From: Ciceribacter thiooxidans
GTDB taxonomy: Bacteria; Pseudomonadota; Alphaproteobacteria; Rhizobiales; Rhizobiaceae
Assembly (NCBI RefSeq): GCF_014126615.1
Contig: NZ_CP059897.1
Span: 806,001 to 870,000 of the forward strand
Reading direction: 5' to 3'
Length of the DNA: 64,000 nucleotides
Positions 4,252-21,522 of this stretch are shown here, piece after piece. Every line of letters starts with the position of its first letter. Position 1 is the first letter of the stretch. The translations under genes and the position numbers were made by a program. The notes below the pieces were generated by a model. It had not been told where the DNA came from. It saw only the letters and a list, made by a program, of their open reading frames with translations, and did not search any database.

Positions 4252-6417
4252 ATGGTAAAAGCTTCTGAAAAGATCACACTCAATACCGGGCGCGAAATTC
4301 CCTTCAACAAGCTTGTGCTCAGTCAGCGGAATGTTCGCAAGACGAAGGCGGGCATGTCCGTTGCGGATCTCGCCGAGGACATCGCCCGACGCGGACTTCT
4401 GACCAGTCTCAACGTTCGCGTCGAACATGACGCGCAAGGGCACGAAACCGGGTTCTTTCGTATTCCGGCCGGCGGGCGCCGTTACCGGGCGCTCGAGCTC
4501 CTCGTCAGTCAGGGACGCCTTTCCAGAACCGTCGCCGTTCCCTGCATCCTGAGCAAATCCACGACCGATGAGGTGGAGGACTCGCTTGCGGAAAACACTC
4601 AGCGCCTCGATCTGCATCCGCTGGATCAGTTTCGGGCGATCATGACGCTCTGGGAGGAGGGTGTCGGAGAAGAGGAAATCGCCGGACGCTTCTTTATTTC
4701 CGTCGCGACTGTGAGGCAAAGGCTGAGGCTTGCATCCGTCTCTCCGCGCCTTCTCGAGCGATATGCCGCCGACGAGATGACGCTCCAGCAGGTCATGGCG
4801 TTTTCGATCACCGATGACCGCGCACGCCAGGAGCAGGTCTGGGAGTTGATTTCGCGCCAGCCGTCGCGCGAACCCTACTACATTCGTAGGCTCCTGACCG
4901 AAACGACTGTGCGCGCAACGGATCGCCGCGCAGTCTATGTCGGCATCGCGGCTTATGAAGCGGCGGGCGGGATCGTGATGCGCGATCTCTTCGACGACGA
5001 TAACGGCGGATGGCTGGAGGATCCATCCTTGCTGGAACAGCTCGCGATCGAAAAGCTCAGGGCAGACGCCGACGCTCTGAAAACCGACGAAGGCTGGAAA
5101 TGGGTCGAGGCCGCATTTGATTTCCCATACGGACACTCCGCCGGTCTTCGTCGTTTCTACCCAGAGCGGGTCGAGTTGACGGATGACGAGCTTGATCGCC
5201 GTCAAGAGGTTGAGACACAGTACAAGACGCTCGATGCCGGTTACGCAGAAGCGACCGAATACGACGCCGACCTCGAACAACGGTTGGAGGAACTCGGCGG
5301 CGAACTTGATCGGCTGAACAATCGACCCCTGGTTTTTGATCGGCAGGAGGTCGCCCGCGGCGGCGCGTTCATCTCGCTTGGCGCCGACGGCATACCGAAA
5401 ATCGAGCGGGGCTTCGTCCGCCCCGAAGATGAGCCGGCTGGTACTGCCGAAGGCGACGATGCGAGCGACCGTAACGAGGAGGACGACGGCGAAGGAGATG
5501 GTGCGCCGTCCACGACGGAAGGTGCCCGCTCCAGCGCAGAGGCGAACACGGTGGATGGAGCCGACGAGGAAGATGGTACCGCGCGTGGACTTTCCGACCG
5601 TGTTGTCGAAGACCTGACGGCCGCGCGCACCCTGGCACTCAGAAATGCGCTCGCCAACGATCCGGCGATTGCCTTCGTCGCCGCCCTGCATGCCCTCGTG
5701 CTCAGGACCTTCTTCTCCCAAGGTTCCGCTTCCTGCCTCGAACTGACGTTCCAGAGCGCAAATCTGGGCCAGACGCCGGGCCTTTGCGACACCGTCTGGG
5801 CAAAGGAGATCGACCGACGCCACGAGGCGTGGGGACAGGATCTCCCGCGGAATGCCAGCGCGCTCTGGGACTACCTGATCTCGCTCGACGAGGTCCGTCG
5901 ACAGGCCTTGTTCGCGCACTGCATTTCGCTGTCGCTCAACGCCGTCGTCCAGGCATGGAACCGGCGGCCTGCCGCACTCTTGCATGCCGAACAGCTTGCC
6001 CGCTCCCTCGGCTTCGATATGGCCGAGGCAGGTTGGGAACCGACCGTCGACAACTACCTCGGCAGGATCACCAAGGCGCATATCTTGAAGGCCGTTCGCG
6101 AGGCCCGTGGAGAGCCGTCGGTCCAGCTTATCGACCATCTCAAGAAGCCCGACATGGCGCGCGAGGCCGAGCGGCTGCTGCGGCGTAGGAAATGGCTCCC
6201 GGAGCCGCTGCGCGCATCTGCTCCCGAAGTCTCGCCGGAAGAAGCCGCGGCTCGCGCCGTCGCTGCCGATGCGAATGCCGGTGGCTATACGAGCAGCACT
6301 ACGGATGAGGATGCAGGAACTGGCGCTCCGCGGTCTCCGGTGCAGGAGCCGGACGCTGGAGATCCTGCTTTCCGTCTCGTCGAGGATGAAGGCGCATCGG
6401 TTTCGGCCACAGGTTGA
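4252..6417 (+). CDS. Orphan ParB/RepB/Spo0J-family protein (721 aa)
   Basis: The N-terminal about 200 residues form a ParB/Srx-type domain with the conserved boxes PAGGRRYRALE and DSLAENTQRLDLHPLDQFRA, then an HTH (GRFFISVATVRQRL). The remainder is a long acidic region and a helical C-terminal domain. At 721 residues it is far longer than a canonical ParB. There is no ParA next to it, so it is unlikely to be the plasmid partition ParB; such proteins are common accessory DNA-binding proteins on rhizobial plasmids. I chose the ATG at 4252 because GGAGAAAG lies just upstream; an in-frame ATG at 4207 has no good ribosome site. Confidence 0.85.
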   Translation: MVKASEKITLNTGREIPFNKLVLSQRNVRKTKAGMSVADLAEDIARRGLLTSLNVRVEHDAQGHETGFFRIPAGGRRYRALELLVSQGRLSRTVAVPCILSKSTTDEVEDSLAENTQRLDLHPLDQFRAIMTLWEEGVGEEEIAGRFFISVATVRQRLRLASVSPRLLERYAADEMTLQQVMAFSITDDRARQEQVWELISRQPSREPYYIRRLLTETTVRATDRRAVYVGIAAYEAAGGIVMRDLFDDDNGGWLEDPSLLEQLAIEKLRADADALKTDEGWKWVEAAFDFPYGHSAGLRRFYPERVELTDDELDRRQEVETQYKTLDAGYAEATEYDADLEQRLEELGGELDRLNNRPLVFDRQEVARGGAFISLGADGIPKIERGFVRPEDEPAGTAEGDDASDRNEEDDGEGDGAPSTTEGARSSAEANTVDGADEEDGTARGLSDRVVEDLTAARTLALRNALANDPAIAFVAALHALVLRTFFSQGSASCLELTFQSANLGQTPGLCDTVWAKEIDRRHEAWGQDLPRNASALWDYLISLDEVRRQALFAHCISLSLNAVVQAWNRRPAALLHAEQLARSLGFDMAEAGWEPTVDNYLGRITKAHILKAVREARGEPSVQLIDHLKKPDMAREAERLLRRRKWLPEPLRASAPEVSPEEAAARAVAADANAGGYTSSTTDEDAGTGAPRSPVQEPDAGDPAFRLVEDEGASVSATG

Positions 6418-13226: not shown

Positions 13227-13401
13227 TGAAGCCACTCCTGTCGGTGCGGGCAGGTCGGGCGTGGCGGGGAGGCCGGGTCGGATGGTCGGCGTTTCTGCGG
13301 CGCGCCCGCGTGCCTGCCGAGGACGACCCTTACCATACGGCCGTCGGGCCTTCAGCGGGTCAGGCGGGTTTCTTCCCCGCGCCGTTGGCGCATCGGCTGT
13401 T

Positions 13402-13426
13402 CCGAAAACCGGTGCCCGGTTTTCGG
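13402..13426. repeat. Perfect palindrome CCGAAAACCGG / CCGGTTTTCGG
   Basis: Eleven-base perfect arms (13402-13412, 13416-13426) around TGC. The sequence resembles a dispersed intergenic palindrome common in rhizobial genomes. It could act as a terminator for the toprim gene, although no T-run follows. Confidence 0.6.
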
Positions 13427-13478
13427 GCCGATCGGCGCCGGCGCTCCTCGCGCGACAAGAATCCCTTCTTCCGCCGCC

Positions 13479-13515
13479 CGGCGCTTCGCTGGGCCGCGGC
13501 GCTGAAGCGCCGCGG
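13479..13515 (+). promoter_or_regulatory. Mutually exclusive hairpins upstream of DUF2493 gene
   Basis: CGGCGCTTC (13479-13487) can pair with GAAGCGCCG (13504-13512). Alternatively CCGCGGCGC (13494-13502) can pair with GCGCCGCGG (13507-13515). Both are 9-base perfect stems and share bases, so only one can form. They lie 76 bases before the start codon. Confidence 0.45.
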
Positions 13516-13590
13516 TTCCGGCCCGCCGCCGTAAGGACAGAGGTCGCCGCCAGGCCGCGAGAGGCGCGGCCGCAACCGACGGAGACCATC

Positions 13591-14532
13591 ATGGACCTGA
13601 CCCTTCCCGCCGACGACGCCTTTGAACCCCACCACACCTCATCTCCGACCGACCGCTTCATCTACGAGATGCAGATCTACGGGCATCGTCCTTTCCAGGA
13701 CGAACCGGACCCAAGGCCATTGCCCGAAGAGCCGCTCGTCCAGACGGCCCTGACCGCGGTCTTCGATGCCCTCACCGAGATGCTCGGCGACACGCGTCTG
13801 GAGCCCGATCTCGAGGACGTGCTCTGGTCGACCGTCAATCTCTTCCATCGCTCCGGCGAGCGCATCCAGCGCGAGCTTCAGCGCAACGAGGATGCACAGC
13901 GAAGCGGACAGAGCGAGCAGGACGGCTCGGAGGTGAAAAGCGTCGAGCTTGAGCGTCTCATCGCCGAGGGGACAACCCTTTTGGAGCGTCGCAACGCCTT
14001 CGAGTTCATGCGTGACTATGCCGGCGATCTCTTCGAAGCCCAAACAGGATCTGCATGGCGCCCGCGCACCGGATCGAAGGTCAGTCACGCCAATATGACT
14101 GCGGCGATGATCGACAGCCGCGACTTTCTCTCCGCCCGCCGCCGTGCCGAGACCGAGGTGCTGATTCCCGGCGGCACGAAGATCGCCTTCGGCGGCGGCA
14201 TCGACTACAACGATCACGAACGGATCTGGGCGAAGCTCGACCAGGCCCTCGCCAAGTATCCCGACATGGTGCTGCTGCATGGCGGTTCGCCGAAAGGGGC
14301 CGAACGCATTGCGGCCTGCTGGGCCGAGGCGCGCAAGGTGACGCAGATCGCCTTCAAACCGAACTGGGCGAAGCACGCCAAGGCGGCACCTTTCCGGCGC
14401 AACGACGAGATGCTGTCGGTCCTACCCGCCGGGGTCGTCATCTTCCCCGGCTCCGGCATTACCGGCAATCTCGCCGACAAGGCGCGTCGCCTCGGTATTC
14501 CGGTCTGGCAGGTCGCTGGGGATGGCGCGTGA
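13591..14532 (+). CDS. DUF2493 (SLOG-superfamily) plasmid protein
   Basis: A 313-residue protein whose C-terminal about 130 residues form a DUF2493/SLOG Rossmann-like domain: TKIAFGGGIDYNDHERIWAK, then VLLHGGSPKGAERIAACWAE, a glycine-rich loop with family-typical arrangement. The N-terminal region is helical and charged, without a known domain. SLOG domains bind nucleotides or nucleotide-derived ligands; the ligand here is unknown. Start 13591 was taken because family similarity starts there; it follows a structured leader. It ends near the convergent second RES toxin gene. Confidence 0.85.
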   Translation: MDLTLPADDAFEPHHTSSPTDRFIYEMQIYGHRPFQDEPDPRPLPEEPLVQTALTAVFDALTEMLGDTRLEPDLEDVLWSTVNLFHRSGERIQRELQRNEDAQRSGQSEQDGSEVKSVELERLIAEGTTLLERRNAFEFMRDYAGDLFEAQTGSAWRPRTGSKVSHANMTAAMIDSRDFLSARRRAETEVLIPGGTKIAFGGGIDYNDHERIWAKLDQALAKYPDMVLLHGGSPKGAERIAACWAEARKVTQIAFKPNWAKHAKAAPFRRNDEMLSVLPAGVVIFPGSGITGNLADKARRLGIPVWQVAGDGA

Positions 14533-14611: not shown

Positions 14612-15118
14612 TCACGCAGCCGGTGGGTGCAATCTCGTGTCGAGCGCAAAAGCCTCCTGAAATTTCAGAGCATAGGCGCCAGTCCCGCTGCCCGGCAGAA
14701 AGATCAGGTTCCAGCTATGCGACGACACGGCACTCGGGATCGCGACGAAACGGTGACGTTGAAGCAGATCGTCTCCGAATGCTTGCTGTCCCGCGCCAGG
14801 GATGCCCGGGCGGAGCCAATTGGGGTTGGGTAGGCTTGCCGGGTCGACGACATGGACATCGCCGGCATCGGCAATGACAGCCGCTGTCATTATATGCGCA
14901 ACCGTGTCGAGAGCCCGAAACCCCTTGTGGACCGCGACCTCGAGGATCGCAGTGGCGGGATCGAGCGAGCAGTAGACCGCGCGAACACCCTTGCTGTTCC
15001 AGCGGCCGCCCACGCGATAGGCGCCTTCGCCGCTATCCCATGTCGGCGCGTGGACGGCTTGATCGAGCCGCCAGGCGACCAACTCGGTCCCGCCGAGACC
15101 GATAGGTAAAAGGCTCAT
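14612..15118 (-). CDS. RES-domain toxin, second copy
   Basis: A 168-residue RES toxin. Diagnostic motif GAYRVGGRWNSKGVRAVYCS lies at about residues 33-52 with the conserved arginines; SLDPATAILEVAVHKGF follows and contains the conserved glutamate. This is the compact form, shorter than the copy at 9623. Predicted NAD+ phosphorylase. It is encoded downstream of its antitoxin and overlaps it by ATGA. Little sequence resemblance to the first RES copy, so the pairs were probably acquired separately rather than duplicated. Confidence 0.9.
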   Translation of the reverse strand: MSLLPIGLGGTELVAWRLDQAVHAPTWDSGEGAYRVGGRWNSKGVRAVYCSLDPATAILEVAVHKGFRALDTVAHIMTAAVIADAGDVHVVDPASLPNPNWLRPGIPGAGQQAFGDDLLQRHRFVAIPSAVSSHSWNLIFLPGSGTGAYALKFQEAFALDTRLHPPAA

Positions 15119-15600
15119 GCATAGACGCCGTATTCGAGACGGTCGAGATGATCCTCAACCAGTTCCACGCCAGCGGGCGTCCCAAGAAGATCGATCGGAC
15201 GGCGCTGGTCGAGCCCGATCGCAGGCCGCTCCAGCCATTGCTCTGCCTCTGCCTGCGATCCGAAAATATCCGTTGCCTTTGCGAGAATCTCGGCGAATTT
15301 CCACGCCCGGCCGCTCTGTTCCTGACTGAGCGGCTTGGAGGGCGTGTCCTTCCGCCGCTGCCAGGTGCGCAGGCTCATGCCCACCGCCTTTTCGAGCGAG
15401 TCCGTCTTGCCGATGATGACCAGATGTCCGACAAGGTGATCCAGCGCCGAGGACGGCAGGCCGCGCAAAAGCAACTCATGCGCATCGAGGGGGCTGGTCA
15501 GGCTGCGCGCAAGCACGCGCACACCACCAAGCAACGCAGCTACCTTCTGCAGTTCGCTGGTCGTCGCTTCAGGAGCAATTTTCTCTGCAGCAATAGCCAT
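15115..15600 (-). CDS. MbcA/ParS/Xre-type antitoxin, second copy
   Basis: A 161-residue DUF2384 antitoxin: KAVGMSLRTWQRRKDTPSKP marks the HTH, EILAKATDIFGSQAEAEQWL leads into the C-terminal domain, and LLGTPAGVELVEDHLDRLEY is the toxin-binding tail. Start placed at 15600, which has GGAG at 15607-15610; an in-frame ATG at 15618 has no ribosome site. Overlaps the RES toxin start. The upstream TATATA-rich stretch at about 15630 is the likely promoter. Confidence 0.9.
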   Translation of the reverse strand: MAIAAEKIAPEATTSELQKVAALLGGVRVLARSLTSPLDAHELLLRGLPSSALDHLVGHLVIIGKTDSLEKAVGMSLRTWQRRKDTPSKPLSQEQSGRAWKFAEILAKATDIFGSQAEAEQWLERPAIGLDQRRPIDLLGTPAGVELVEDHLDRLEYGVYA

Positions 15601-15744
15601 CGGCCAACTCCACGTCATTTGTCGTTCTATATATGACAGTTGACGCCATCAATTTCAAGGCGGCGTGTTGCTGCCCACAGTTACACGGTACACGTTCGGC
15701 AGCTTCGACTTGACGTGTACAGGTTGAAATTGTTCACATGCGGC

Positions 15745-16481: not shown

Positions 16482-16886
16482 TTAAAGCGACCAGTCTTCC
16501 ACATGCAGGTTGTCAACCCTGTTGAATTCGCCGACATTGTTGGTGACGAGAGTTAGTCCGCGGGCCTTCGCCTGCCCCGCGATCAGCACGTCATAGGGGC
16601 CGATGGGCGTCCCCTTCGCGGCAAGGGCCGCCCGGATTTCGCCTGCGACAAAGGCATCGTTCCGGTCAAACTCAAGGATCGGAAAATCTGCCATAAACAA
16701 ACGCAAGGTTTCCAGGTTGTGCTGGACCTTCGCGCTTTTCTGCGCTCCGAAATAGAGTTCATACGCGACGACCGTCGGCAGGCCGATACTGCCCTGAGGG
16801 CTGTGGAGTACACGGCTTACCAAGGCGTTTGACTTGCGGCCGATCAAGGCAATAACGGTGTTGGTGTCGAGAAGATGCGAGATCAC
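16482..16886 (-). CDS. vapC: VapC-type PIN-domain ribonuclease toxin
   Basis: A 134-residue PIN-domain protein. Acidic active-site residues are seen in HLLDTNTVIALIG (D near residue 7), the central glutamate in VVAYELYFGAQKSA, and the C-terminal IGPYDVLIAGQAKARGLTLV and NNVGEFNRVDNL. VapC toxins cleave tRNA or rRNA. The start overlaps the vapB stop (ATGA). All expected acidic residues are present, so the toxin looks intact. Confidence 0.93.
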   Translation of the reverse strand: MISHLLDTNTVIALIGRKSNALVSRVLHSPQGSIGLPTVVAYELYFGAQKSAKVQHNLETLRLFMADFPILEFDRNDAFVAGEIRAALAAKGTPIGPYDVLIAGQAKARGLTLVTNNVGEFNRVDNLHVEDWSL

Positions 16887-17143
16887 TGAAACACCGCGTC
16901 AAGCTCCGGTCGATCCTGCTGTTCAGGCTGCTCGCGCCCGCTCTCCATGAAGTCTTCACTCATGCCGCGGGCCAGCGCTGCTTTCAGCGACGACCACGGC
17001 TCGCCCGCCTCGACATGGGGACGGAGAATGAGCGCATCGCCCTCCTGCGTGATCTCCACGCGCTCGACGTTGAAGCGGAATTCCTTCGGCAGGCGGACGG
17101 CCTGCGAGTTTCCGGACTGGAATACGCGTGCAAAATGGGGCAT
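16883..17143 (-). CDS. vapB: VapB-type antitoxin (AbrB/SpoVT-like)
   Basis: An 86-residue antitoxin. The N-terminal swapped-hairpin DNA-binding region reads ARVFQSGNSQAVRLPKEFRF, the classic VapB/MazE-like SGNSQAVRLP motif. The C-terminal half is acidic and would bind VapC. It precedes and overlaps vapC. Expected to repress its own promoter through the imperfect palindrome at 17159-17180. Confidence 0.93.
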   Translation of the reverse strand: MPHFARVFQSGNSQAVRLPKEFRFNVERVEITQEGDALILRPHVEAGEPWSSLKAALARGMSEDFMESGREQPEQQDRPELDAVFQ

Positions 17144-17730: not shown

Positions 17731-18142
17731 GCTCCTGCCCGCGCGAATTCACCGACGTGAAGCGATGTCGGCCGCGGCTGCTCAGGACCGACGGATCGGG
17801 GCAGGAGGGCGTCCGTCGAGGAGACTGTGGTCGTGCCGAGACCGGACGGCGGGCGGTATCGTTGAAGATCGCCTGGTCGAGATCAGAGGGATGAGCCTCC
17901 CGAGACGTTGCGGCGCCGCTTGTTCGCGATATGGTCACCGCGGTCGTCTCAACGTGCACCCGAGAGATGTGGCGGCCAGTCGACATTCCTTGCTGACCGT
18001 GCTTGGCCGGGAAGGCCGAGGGGACATCGGGTCGGACGGTAGGTCCGCAACGGAAGGTGCTGGCAGTCTCTTTCAGTGCCGGACCGGGCGGCCTCAATGG
18101 TTTGTCGCCGCTTCGGTTGCACGAGACCATTCCCGTTTCTAT
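17731..18142. other. Gene-free stretch downstream of the Phd-like gene
   Basis: About 410 bases without a supportable gene. A toxin partner for Phd was looked for in all frames and not seen. Confidence 0.4.
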
Positions 18143-18191
18143 GTCGCCCTTTAGGCGACCGTCTGCTTTTGCGGTCAACCCCTGAAGGGGT
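18143..18191 (+). repeat. Series of small overlapping hairpins
   Basis: GTCGCC/GGCGAC (18143-18159), GACCG/CGGTC (18157-18176) and ACCCCT/AGGGGT (18178-18191) follow each other directly. The first two share bases. They form the left flank of the large nested inverted repeat and precede the DUF736 gene. Confidence 0.6.
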
Positions 18192-18194
18192 ACG

Positions 18195-18326
18195 TCTCGA
18201 CGAAAATTCTGCAAAATTCGATTTTGGTTTGTCATGCGGGCGCCTGGCACTTTCATCCCGCAAGCGGGATGAAAGTGCGCCCGCCTTTTTGGCGGAAAAT
18301 AGAATTTTGCAGAATTTTCGCCGAGA
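18195..18326. repeat. Large nested inverted repeat in the leader of the DUF736 gene
   Basis: Outer arms: 18201-18219 (cgaaaattctgcaaaattc) is perfectly complementary to 18302-18320, and TCTCG/CGAGA extend them to 25 bases with one mismatch. Inner arms: CACTTTCATCCCGC (18248-18261) pairs perfectly with 18264-18277 over a two-base loop. GCGGGCG (18236-18242) and CGCCCGC (18278-18284) continue that stem beyond a five-base bulge. A competing CCGCC-TTTTT-GGCGG hairpin lies at 18281-18295. The whole unit ends 72 bases before the ATG of the DUF736 gene. Confidence 0.9.
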
Positions 18327-18398
18327 TGACCGCAGCAGATCGGCCGTCTCTTCGCGCGTCATCGGGAATGGTCCCGAGCAAACGAAGGAGACAATACC

Positions 18399-18722
18399 AT
18401 GGCCACCACGATCGCAACCCTGACGCAGAAGACCGACGGCACCCTCGAAGGCGTCTTCGCCACCATCCGGGTCAACGCCCTAATCGCCATCGTCCCGAAC
18501 TCCGCCAAGGCAAGCGAAGAAGCGCCCGACTACCGCGTCATCCACCGCAAGACCGGCTTCGAGATCGGCGCAGCGTGGAACCGCATCGCCCGACAGACCG
18601 GCGAGGAATACCTCTCGGTCAAGCTGGAGGCTCCGGAGATCGGCGTCATCTTCGGTAACGTCGCTCCCGCACCCGGCGGTGACCCGAACCGCAAGGTGAT
18701 CCTCTGGAACAACCCGAACTGA
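18399..18722 (+). CDS. DUF736 family plasmid protein
   Basis: A 107-residue DUF736 protein: GTLEGVFATIRVNALIAIVP, then DYRVIHRKTGFEIGAAWNRI and YLSVKLEAPEIGVIFGNVAP. The family is small, widespread on alphaproteobacterial plasmids and of unknown function; the fold is predicted beta-rich. AAGGAGA lies just before the ATG. It sits next to the transfer genes, as is usual. The unusually structured leader upstream suggests RNA-level or local protein control. A strong hairpin follows the stop. Confidence 0.9.
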   Translation: MATTIATLTQKTDGTLEGVFATIRVNALIAIVPNSAKASEEAPDYRVIHRKTGFEIGAAWNRIARQTGEEYLSVKLEAPEIGVIFGNVAPAPGGDPNRKVILWNNPN

Positions 18723-21329: not shown

Positions 21330-21369
21330 TTCCGTACCCTCCATGACTTCGACAGGATCGATCGCTTCA

Positions 21370-21380: not shown

Positions 21381-21493
21381 TAGAATAAGCTAGTAAAATG
21401 GAATAGTCTAGGCCAGCCAATGAATGGCACGCGACGCTTTCGATGAGGCCGTCTGGCAGAAGGCCGGACCGGAACAACGGGTTCGGTCCGGCG

Positions 21494-21522
21494 AGGGCGC
21501 AATATACGTCGCTGGCGCGACG
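21494..21522. other. Origin of transfer (oriT), nic region
   Basis: On the minus strand an inverted repeat CGTCGC-GCCA-GCGACG (21507-21522) is followed six bases later by TGCG|CCCT, matching the RSF1010/Ti-type nic core. The inferred nick lies between 21498 and 21497 on the minus strand. The site lies between divergent traA and traC, exactly where oriT lies in Ti plasmids. Confidence 0.85.

Follow-up and report, generated by a model that had tools for sequence, protein, structure and literature searches.

A conserved hairpin leader of DUF736 genes on rhizobial plasmids as a candidate promoter acting on single-stranded DNA

The window, the 64,000-nucleotide stretch of Ciceribacter thiooxidans DNA that was analysed as a whole, carries a DUF736 gene on its plus strand at 18399..18722 (107 amino acids; PF05284, E 4.5e-20). 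Its product is predicted to be an all-beta domain (mean pLDDT 89, pTM 0.82), and a search for structural relatives of the predicted structure returned none with confidence. In an account of one Mesorhizobium ICE type, DUF736, a protein of unknown function, is described as present on all of its elements, often twice (PMC8627217). The upstream leader of the gene is occupied by a single hairpin element at 18111..18390, delimited by a repeat search, related leaders and folding, of which the minus strand is proposed to be the folding one. Its base is formed by an outer pair of 25-nt arms, found by the repeat search (88% complementary) and in class alignments: a left arm at 18111..18135 (CTTCGGTTGC..GACCATTCCCG) and a right arm at 18363..18387 (CGGGAATGGTC..GCAAACGAAG), the latter also being part of a local hairpin, CGGGAATGGTCCCG. 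Further up lie a conserved side hairpin, ACCCC..GGGGT, at 18178..18191 (class alignments and consensus structures) and two AT-rich arms of 31 nt at 18195..18225 and 18296..18326 (94% complementary in the repeat search; both were also recovered from the class A and B alignments). The tip is an inner GC-rich stem-loop at 18247..18278, with a stem of 15 bp (18247..18261 with 18264..18278) and a 2-base loop. A Shine-Dalgarno sequence, GAAGGAG, is read on the plus strand at 18384..18390, at the exit of the hairpin.

The repeats that the first-pass annotation had reported in this leader are real, apart from minor corrections. The 19-base perfect arms lie at 18201..18219, inside the AT-rich arms, the 25-base arms with one mismatch are found both by direct reading and by the repeat search, and GCGGGCG/CGCCCGC, CCGCC-TTTTT-GGCGG and the left hairpin GTCGCC..GGCGAC are all present. 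The two-base loop of the inner stem is likewise as described, the stem itself being 15 rather than 14 bp long. The wording 'perfectly nested' is too strong, as internal loops and mismatches occur, and the estimate of about 180 bases is too short: it missed the outer pair (18111..18135/18363..18387), with which the structure spans about 280 bases and includes the Shine-Dalgarno region. The nested repeats form the variable end of a larger fold, shaped like a rod, that covers 18111..18390. Folding of both strands had been suggested as a check, and as RNA the segment 18140..18400 is far more stable than its shuffles on each strand (z = −10.2 on the plus and −11.5 on the minus strand; 0 of 200 shuffles equally stable). 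In a G+C-corrected scan of the whole window in 250-base pieces with DNA parameters, 18151..18400 ranks first (z = −8.9 on the minus and −8.7 on the plus strand), the runner-up being 13301..13550 with z = −4.3.

A related leader is found upstream of DUF736 in 79 out of 80 loci, which are those of the top 80 among the 159 DUF736 relatives that had been confirmed; L071 is the sole exception. The arms are hence kept upstream of orthologous genes, and it was their absence there that the first-pass annotation had named as a sign against a conserved functional RNA. The 79 leaders fall into three length classes: A, which resembles the window (seven loci and L004), B (22 loci) and C (49 loci). In L004, a run of N upstream of position 6001 breaks the element in the middle of an arm, perhaps through an assembly failure at the hairpin. 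Single-row exceptions aside, all classes share CCATTCCCGTT, the side hairpin TCAACCC..GGGGT (CCAACCC in class B), the long arms, and CATCGGGAATGGTCCCGA with GAAGGAG ahead of the start codon. In addition, CCATTCCCG in the outer left arm is almost invariant across A, B and C. The nested palindrome corresponds to the apical arm, which differs from class to class more than any other part: it is AT-rich in A and B, extended by the GC-rich inner stem in A but not in B or C, and short and GC-rich in C. Searched on its own, the leader matches 300 plasmid records (Rhizobium 164, Sinorhizobium 57, Agrobacterium 41, others 38).

A covariance model built from 39 class C leaders, R1, was used to map the spread of the element; several of its matches have weak E-values (1e-4 to 1e-3), and the E-values of the model are approximate. 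R1 matches 30 of 247 genomes of the family, with one or two matches per matching genome, and eight genomes in a sample of 397 from the order, with three of the eight belonging to other families. As DUF736 occurs in 120 of the same 397 genomes, most DUF736 genes of the order are without an element detectable by R1. Among 36 fetched matches outside the window, the downstream gene is DUF736 in 29, a small gene of no assigned kind in three, a ParB-like gene in two (L117, L119) and DUF2958 in one, while the remaining match, near a contig end (L088), has none of these genes. In other words, in 35 of the 36 matches the element leads straight into the start of a gene of one of these four kinds. The small genes (L106, L108, L113) encode a protein of about 60 amino acids starting with MSHDL or MSHNL, and related open reading frames in L130 and L133 had no Pfam match. 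In one locus (L132, G009:C6), two DUF736 genes separated by 3 kb each have their own element; their identity to the DUF736 of the window is 87% and 61%. A search of the Ciceribacter genome for dispersed copies found the element in one place only. This single genomic place, together with the 35 of 36 matches lying directly at gene starts, makes a mobile palindromic element unlikely, and the 30 matching family genomes likewise hold one or two matches each.

That the leader contains a conserved structure is nearly certain. In the gene-strand consensus structures, 98.0% (class B) and 98.6% (class C) of the cells can pair, and slid controls partly favour these structures because they were derived from the same rows. 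Pairs changed on both sides number seven in class B against 2.5 in shuffles, and three in class C against 0.2, with none of 500 shuffles reaching as many in either class. Such compensatory changes, the second mark of a conserved functional RNA named in the first-pass annotation, are thus present above the shuffled level. One possible explanation is control of translation by a structured leader of the mRNA: the Shine-Dalgarno sequence would pair with GUCUCUUCG (classes A and B) or CUUCUUCG (class C), or else with the long-range arm, and a ligand, a protein or a small RNA would tip the balance. The very stable RNA fold of the gene strand agrees with it, as do the covarying pairs and the presence of both Shine-Dalgarno pairings in the sequences. 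Selection for pairing in a sense RNA should, however, show more changes to G-U than to A-C. A tree-based count in gene letters over the 201 pairs common to the folds of both strands gave the reverse, 38 events from Watson-Crick to A-C and 21 to G-U (binomial p 0.036), which argues against such selection. The pattern only leans toward the opposite strand: the matching transitions at unpaired sites number 125 (A-C type) and 103 (G-U type), and the ratio at pairs is no different from this baseline (Fisher p 0.24). The excess of G-U over A-C in conserved pairs by which a sense cis-regulatory RNA would be recognized was not found. The same element also stands upstream of four kinds of genes, and a search of the window and nine loci against Rfam 15 gave no match at gathering score, the only hits at E 1 or better being microRNA models, far below threshold, in two elements. 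We regard control by an mRNA leader as unlikely for these reasons and for one more, namely that the gene strand is the less stable of the two.

The comparison of the strands covered 45 leaders (eight of class A including the window, 21 of class B and 16 of 46 of class C). According to the predicted folds, the minus strand, which is the template strand of DUF736, is the more stable one in all 45 with DNA parameters and in 44 with RNA parameters; its z-score is the lower one in 35 and 39 leaders, respectively. The Frpo1 and Frpo2 promoters of plasmid F show the same strand difference. The preference is not specific to this element. The antisense strand is also more stable upstream of 17 out of 20 distant DUF736 genes, many of which lack such an element, and, with DNA parameters, upstream of 17 out of 18 traC genes. 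The other controls, likewise folded with DNA parameters, give a mixed picture, with the antisense strand as the stabler one in 7/18 (traD), 5/18 (traA), 2/12 (RES), 11/17 (DUF2493) and 9/18 (DUF1173) upstream regions.

The position of the leader on the plasmid gives the strand difference a direction. A nick-like motif, TGCGCCCTC, is present on the minus strand at 21493..21501, between traC (ending at 21344) and traA (starting around 21548). We take this motif in the traC-traA gap to be the nick core of a Q/Ti-type plasmid, and hence the putative oriT. The relaxase is described as typically located in the lagging region in a survey of leading regions (PMC11541004). With the relaxase on that side, traC, traD, traG and DUF736 would enter the recipient first, and the entering strand would be the template of DUF736. 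Provided that the nick is placed correctly, the element lies in the leading region before a gene templated by the entering strand, as is the case for Frpo-type promoters. TraA is in reach in 40 of the 80 loci, and the geometry recurs in 39 of these: TraA is co-oriented and downstream in all 40, and in 39 the predicted strand carries the nick motif. Because their gene order is the same, the 40 loci do not count as independent cases. TraG is convergent in all 40 loci that have it. L130, with a MobA/VirD2-type relaxase and NikA/MobC, is a separate case in favour: DUF2958 and its element are located on the strand of the relaxase, past the divergent gap. L133 has a small gene and a DUF736-like gene along with the element, and its TraG is convergent. 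The presumed leading region of the window also contains two toxin-antitoxin pairs, RES/Xre (14612..15618) and a VapC/VapB-like pair (16482..17143). From the options listed in the first-pass annotation (a replication or transfer site, a protein-bound super-operator, an antisense or structured RNA, a palindromic element), position and strand relative to oriT thus point to transfer, with a sense RNA disfavoured and the mobile palindrome unlikely.

The distal arm of the folded strand carries promoter-like boxes. On the minus strand of the window, a candidate −35 box, TTGACC (18173..18178), is followed after 17 nt by a candidate −10 box, CCTAAA (18150..18155), at or beside unpaired bases. Most class B leaders have TTGGCC, 18 nt and CTATAC at this place, and most class C leaders TTGACG, 17 nt and CTTAGA; GTCAAC is invariant in 46 class C rows. 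The boxes fit about eight to nine of the 12 consensus bases, the −10 box being weak. Against the E. coli consensus, 1.6% (C), 3.3% (B) and 1.3% (A) of the shuffles score as well; against an S. meliloti consensus, these proportions are 16%, 0.7% and 0%. Boxes that face the gene in duplex DNA score lower than those of the distal arm in class C (7.0 vs. 8.9 out of 12), and the two scores lie closer together in B (7.6 vs. 8.0) and A (7.9 vs. 8.1). A general promoter scan picks another site on the minus strand. Above the −35 box, where an UP element is expected, classes A and B have the AT-rich duplex, which is absent in class C. In duplex DNA, the candidate −35/−10 pair faces left, away from DUF736. 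This orientation could also be read as that of a duplex control region, in which CCATTCCCG and its inverted copy would be operators while TTGAC and the −10 box would drive a leftward transcript. Both copies of CCATTCCCG are highly conserved, as operators might be, yet this reading does not explain why there is a long rod, why the apical arm has been exchanged while its pairing persists, or why the strands differ, and we consider it improbable.

Taken together, place, strand, fold, the order of the boxes, the AT-rich duplex (in A and B) and the Shine-Dalgarno sequence at the exit would fit a promoter that works on single-stranded DNA, and on balance we favour, with some reserve, the reading of the leader as a hairpin promoter with an Frpo-like mode of action. 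Judging from the motif and the gene order, transfer would start near 21.50 kb and the minus strand would enter the recipient first, toward lower coordinates, which makes DUF736 the first evident gene for which the entering strand is the template. The leader of this strand is predicted to fold into a long, imperfect rod, presumably also in vivo. Its distal arm would act as the non-template promoter strand, with TTGAC, 17-19 nt and a weak −10 box at a poorly paired spot and, in classes A and B, the AT-rich duplex above the boxes. The proximal arm would be the template: RNA polymerase would leave through the base of the rod and transcribe DUF736 from a start near 18355-18370. Second-strand synthesis would then abolish the hairpin, and because the boxes face away from the gene in duplex DNA, expression would be limited to a short burst during establishment. 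In addition, this transcript may serve as a primer for the second strand, a role reported in vitro for Frpo (PMC7690428). The reported priming of DNA synthesis by Frpo-type sites and the fold on the entering strand would also suit an initiation site of the ssi/sso type that serves second-strand synthesis only and lies near the gene without serving it. Such a site has little probability in our view, as it accounts neither for the end of the element at the start codon in 35 of 36 matches nor for the included Shine-Dalgarno sequence.

A wider reading of the single-strand promoter is that of a family, unrelated in sequence to Frpo, whose core is constant and whose apical arm can be exchanged; on plasmids and conjugative elements of Hyphomicrobiales, it would activate DUF736, ParB-like, DUF2958 and small unassigned genes upon DNA entry; we put this forward tentatively, as a possibility somewhat short of probable. 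The products of these genes would then be candidate establishment or anti-defence factors. If the element works in the proposed way, rhizobial and agrobacterial plasmids would have a separate, structurally conserved form of early expression from the strand that enters, the covariance model would be a tool for finding the genes served, and a role for DUF736 would be suggested. The 2024 survey of leading regions took five known Frpo/ssi sequences plus a small number of candidates as queries (PMC11541004) and, as a sequence search with known sites, would miss the rhizobial element. An unrelated conserved hairpin leader, containing TTTCTTCCCC..CAAGAA, lies at 13301..13590 of the window, before a DUF2493 gene that likely starts at 13591. 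It precedes DUF2493 in 60 sequences including the window (57 unique), and the entering strand is the stabler one in 41 of the 57. This hairpin may be another single-strand promoter on the same plasmid. In five loci (L149, L153, L154, L155, L158), a distant DUF736 gene has another long upstream hairpin, the inner part of which resembles by eye that of DUF2493.

Among known systems, the cis-regulatory RNA leaders of Rfam are similarly structured, conserved and covarying, are located before a start codon and can hold the Shine-Dalgarno sequence, but the element belongs to none of these families at gathering score and has no excess of G-U. Like the element, the oriT of Q/Ti-type plasmids has hairpins within the plasmid's transfer region; here, however, the nick-like motif and the relaxase are 3.1 kb away from the element. 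The papers on single-strand promoters of the Frpo type (PMC9849209, PMC11541004) cite Masai and Arai (1997). The stem-loop of Frpo is described as restoring −10 and −35 boxes, and the deletion of Frpo in F as having abolished the early expression of three fusions (PMC9849209). A search of full-text literature for Frpo in rhizobia yielded nothing beyond a primer name. In sequence, the element shows no significant similarity to Frpo1 and Frpo2 of F, the two sites compared (best BLAST E 0.61), and a search of the F leading region with R1 gave no match with an E-value of 5 or lower. It also differs from them in its weak −10 box, in DUF736 as the main gene and in the lack of an AT-rich duplex in class C. 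That the element works like Frpo, without a detectable sequence relation, nonetheless appears to us slightly more plausible than not, given what the two have in common: a place in the leading region before a gene that points to oriT and has the entering strand as its template (for Frpo as described in PMC9849209 and PMC11541004), a large imperfect stem-loop that is stabler on the entering strand, a TTGAC-like −35 box, an AT-rich duplex (in the rhizobial classes A and B), and the presence of ParB-like genes behind some of the sites, both in the leading region of F and at the two rhizobial elements mentioned above.
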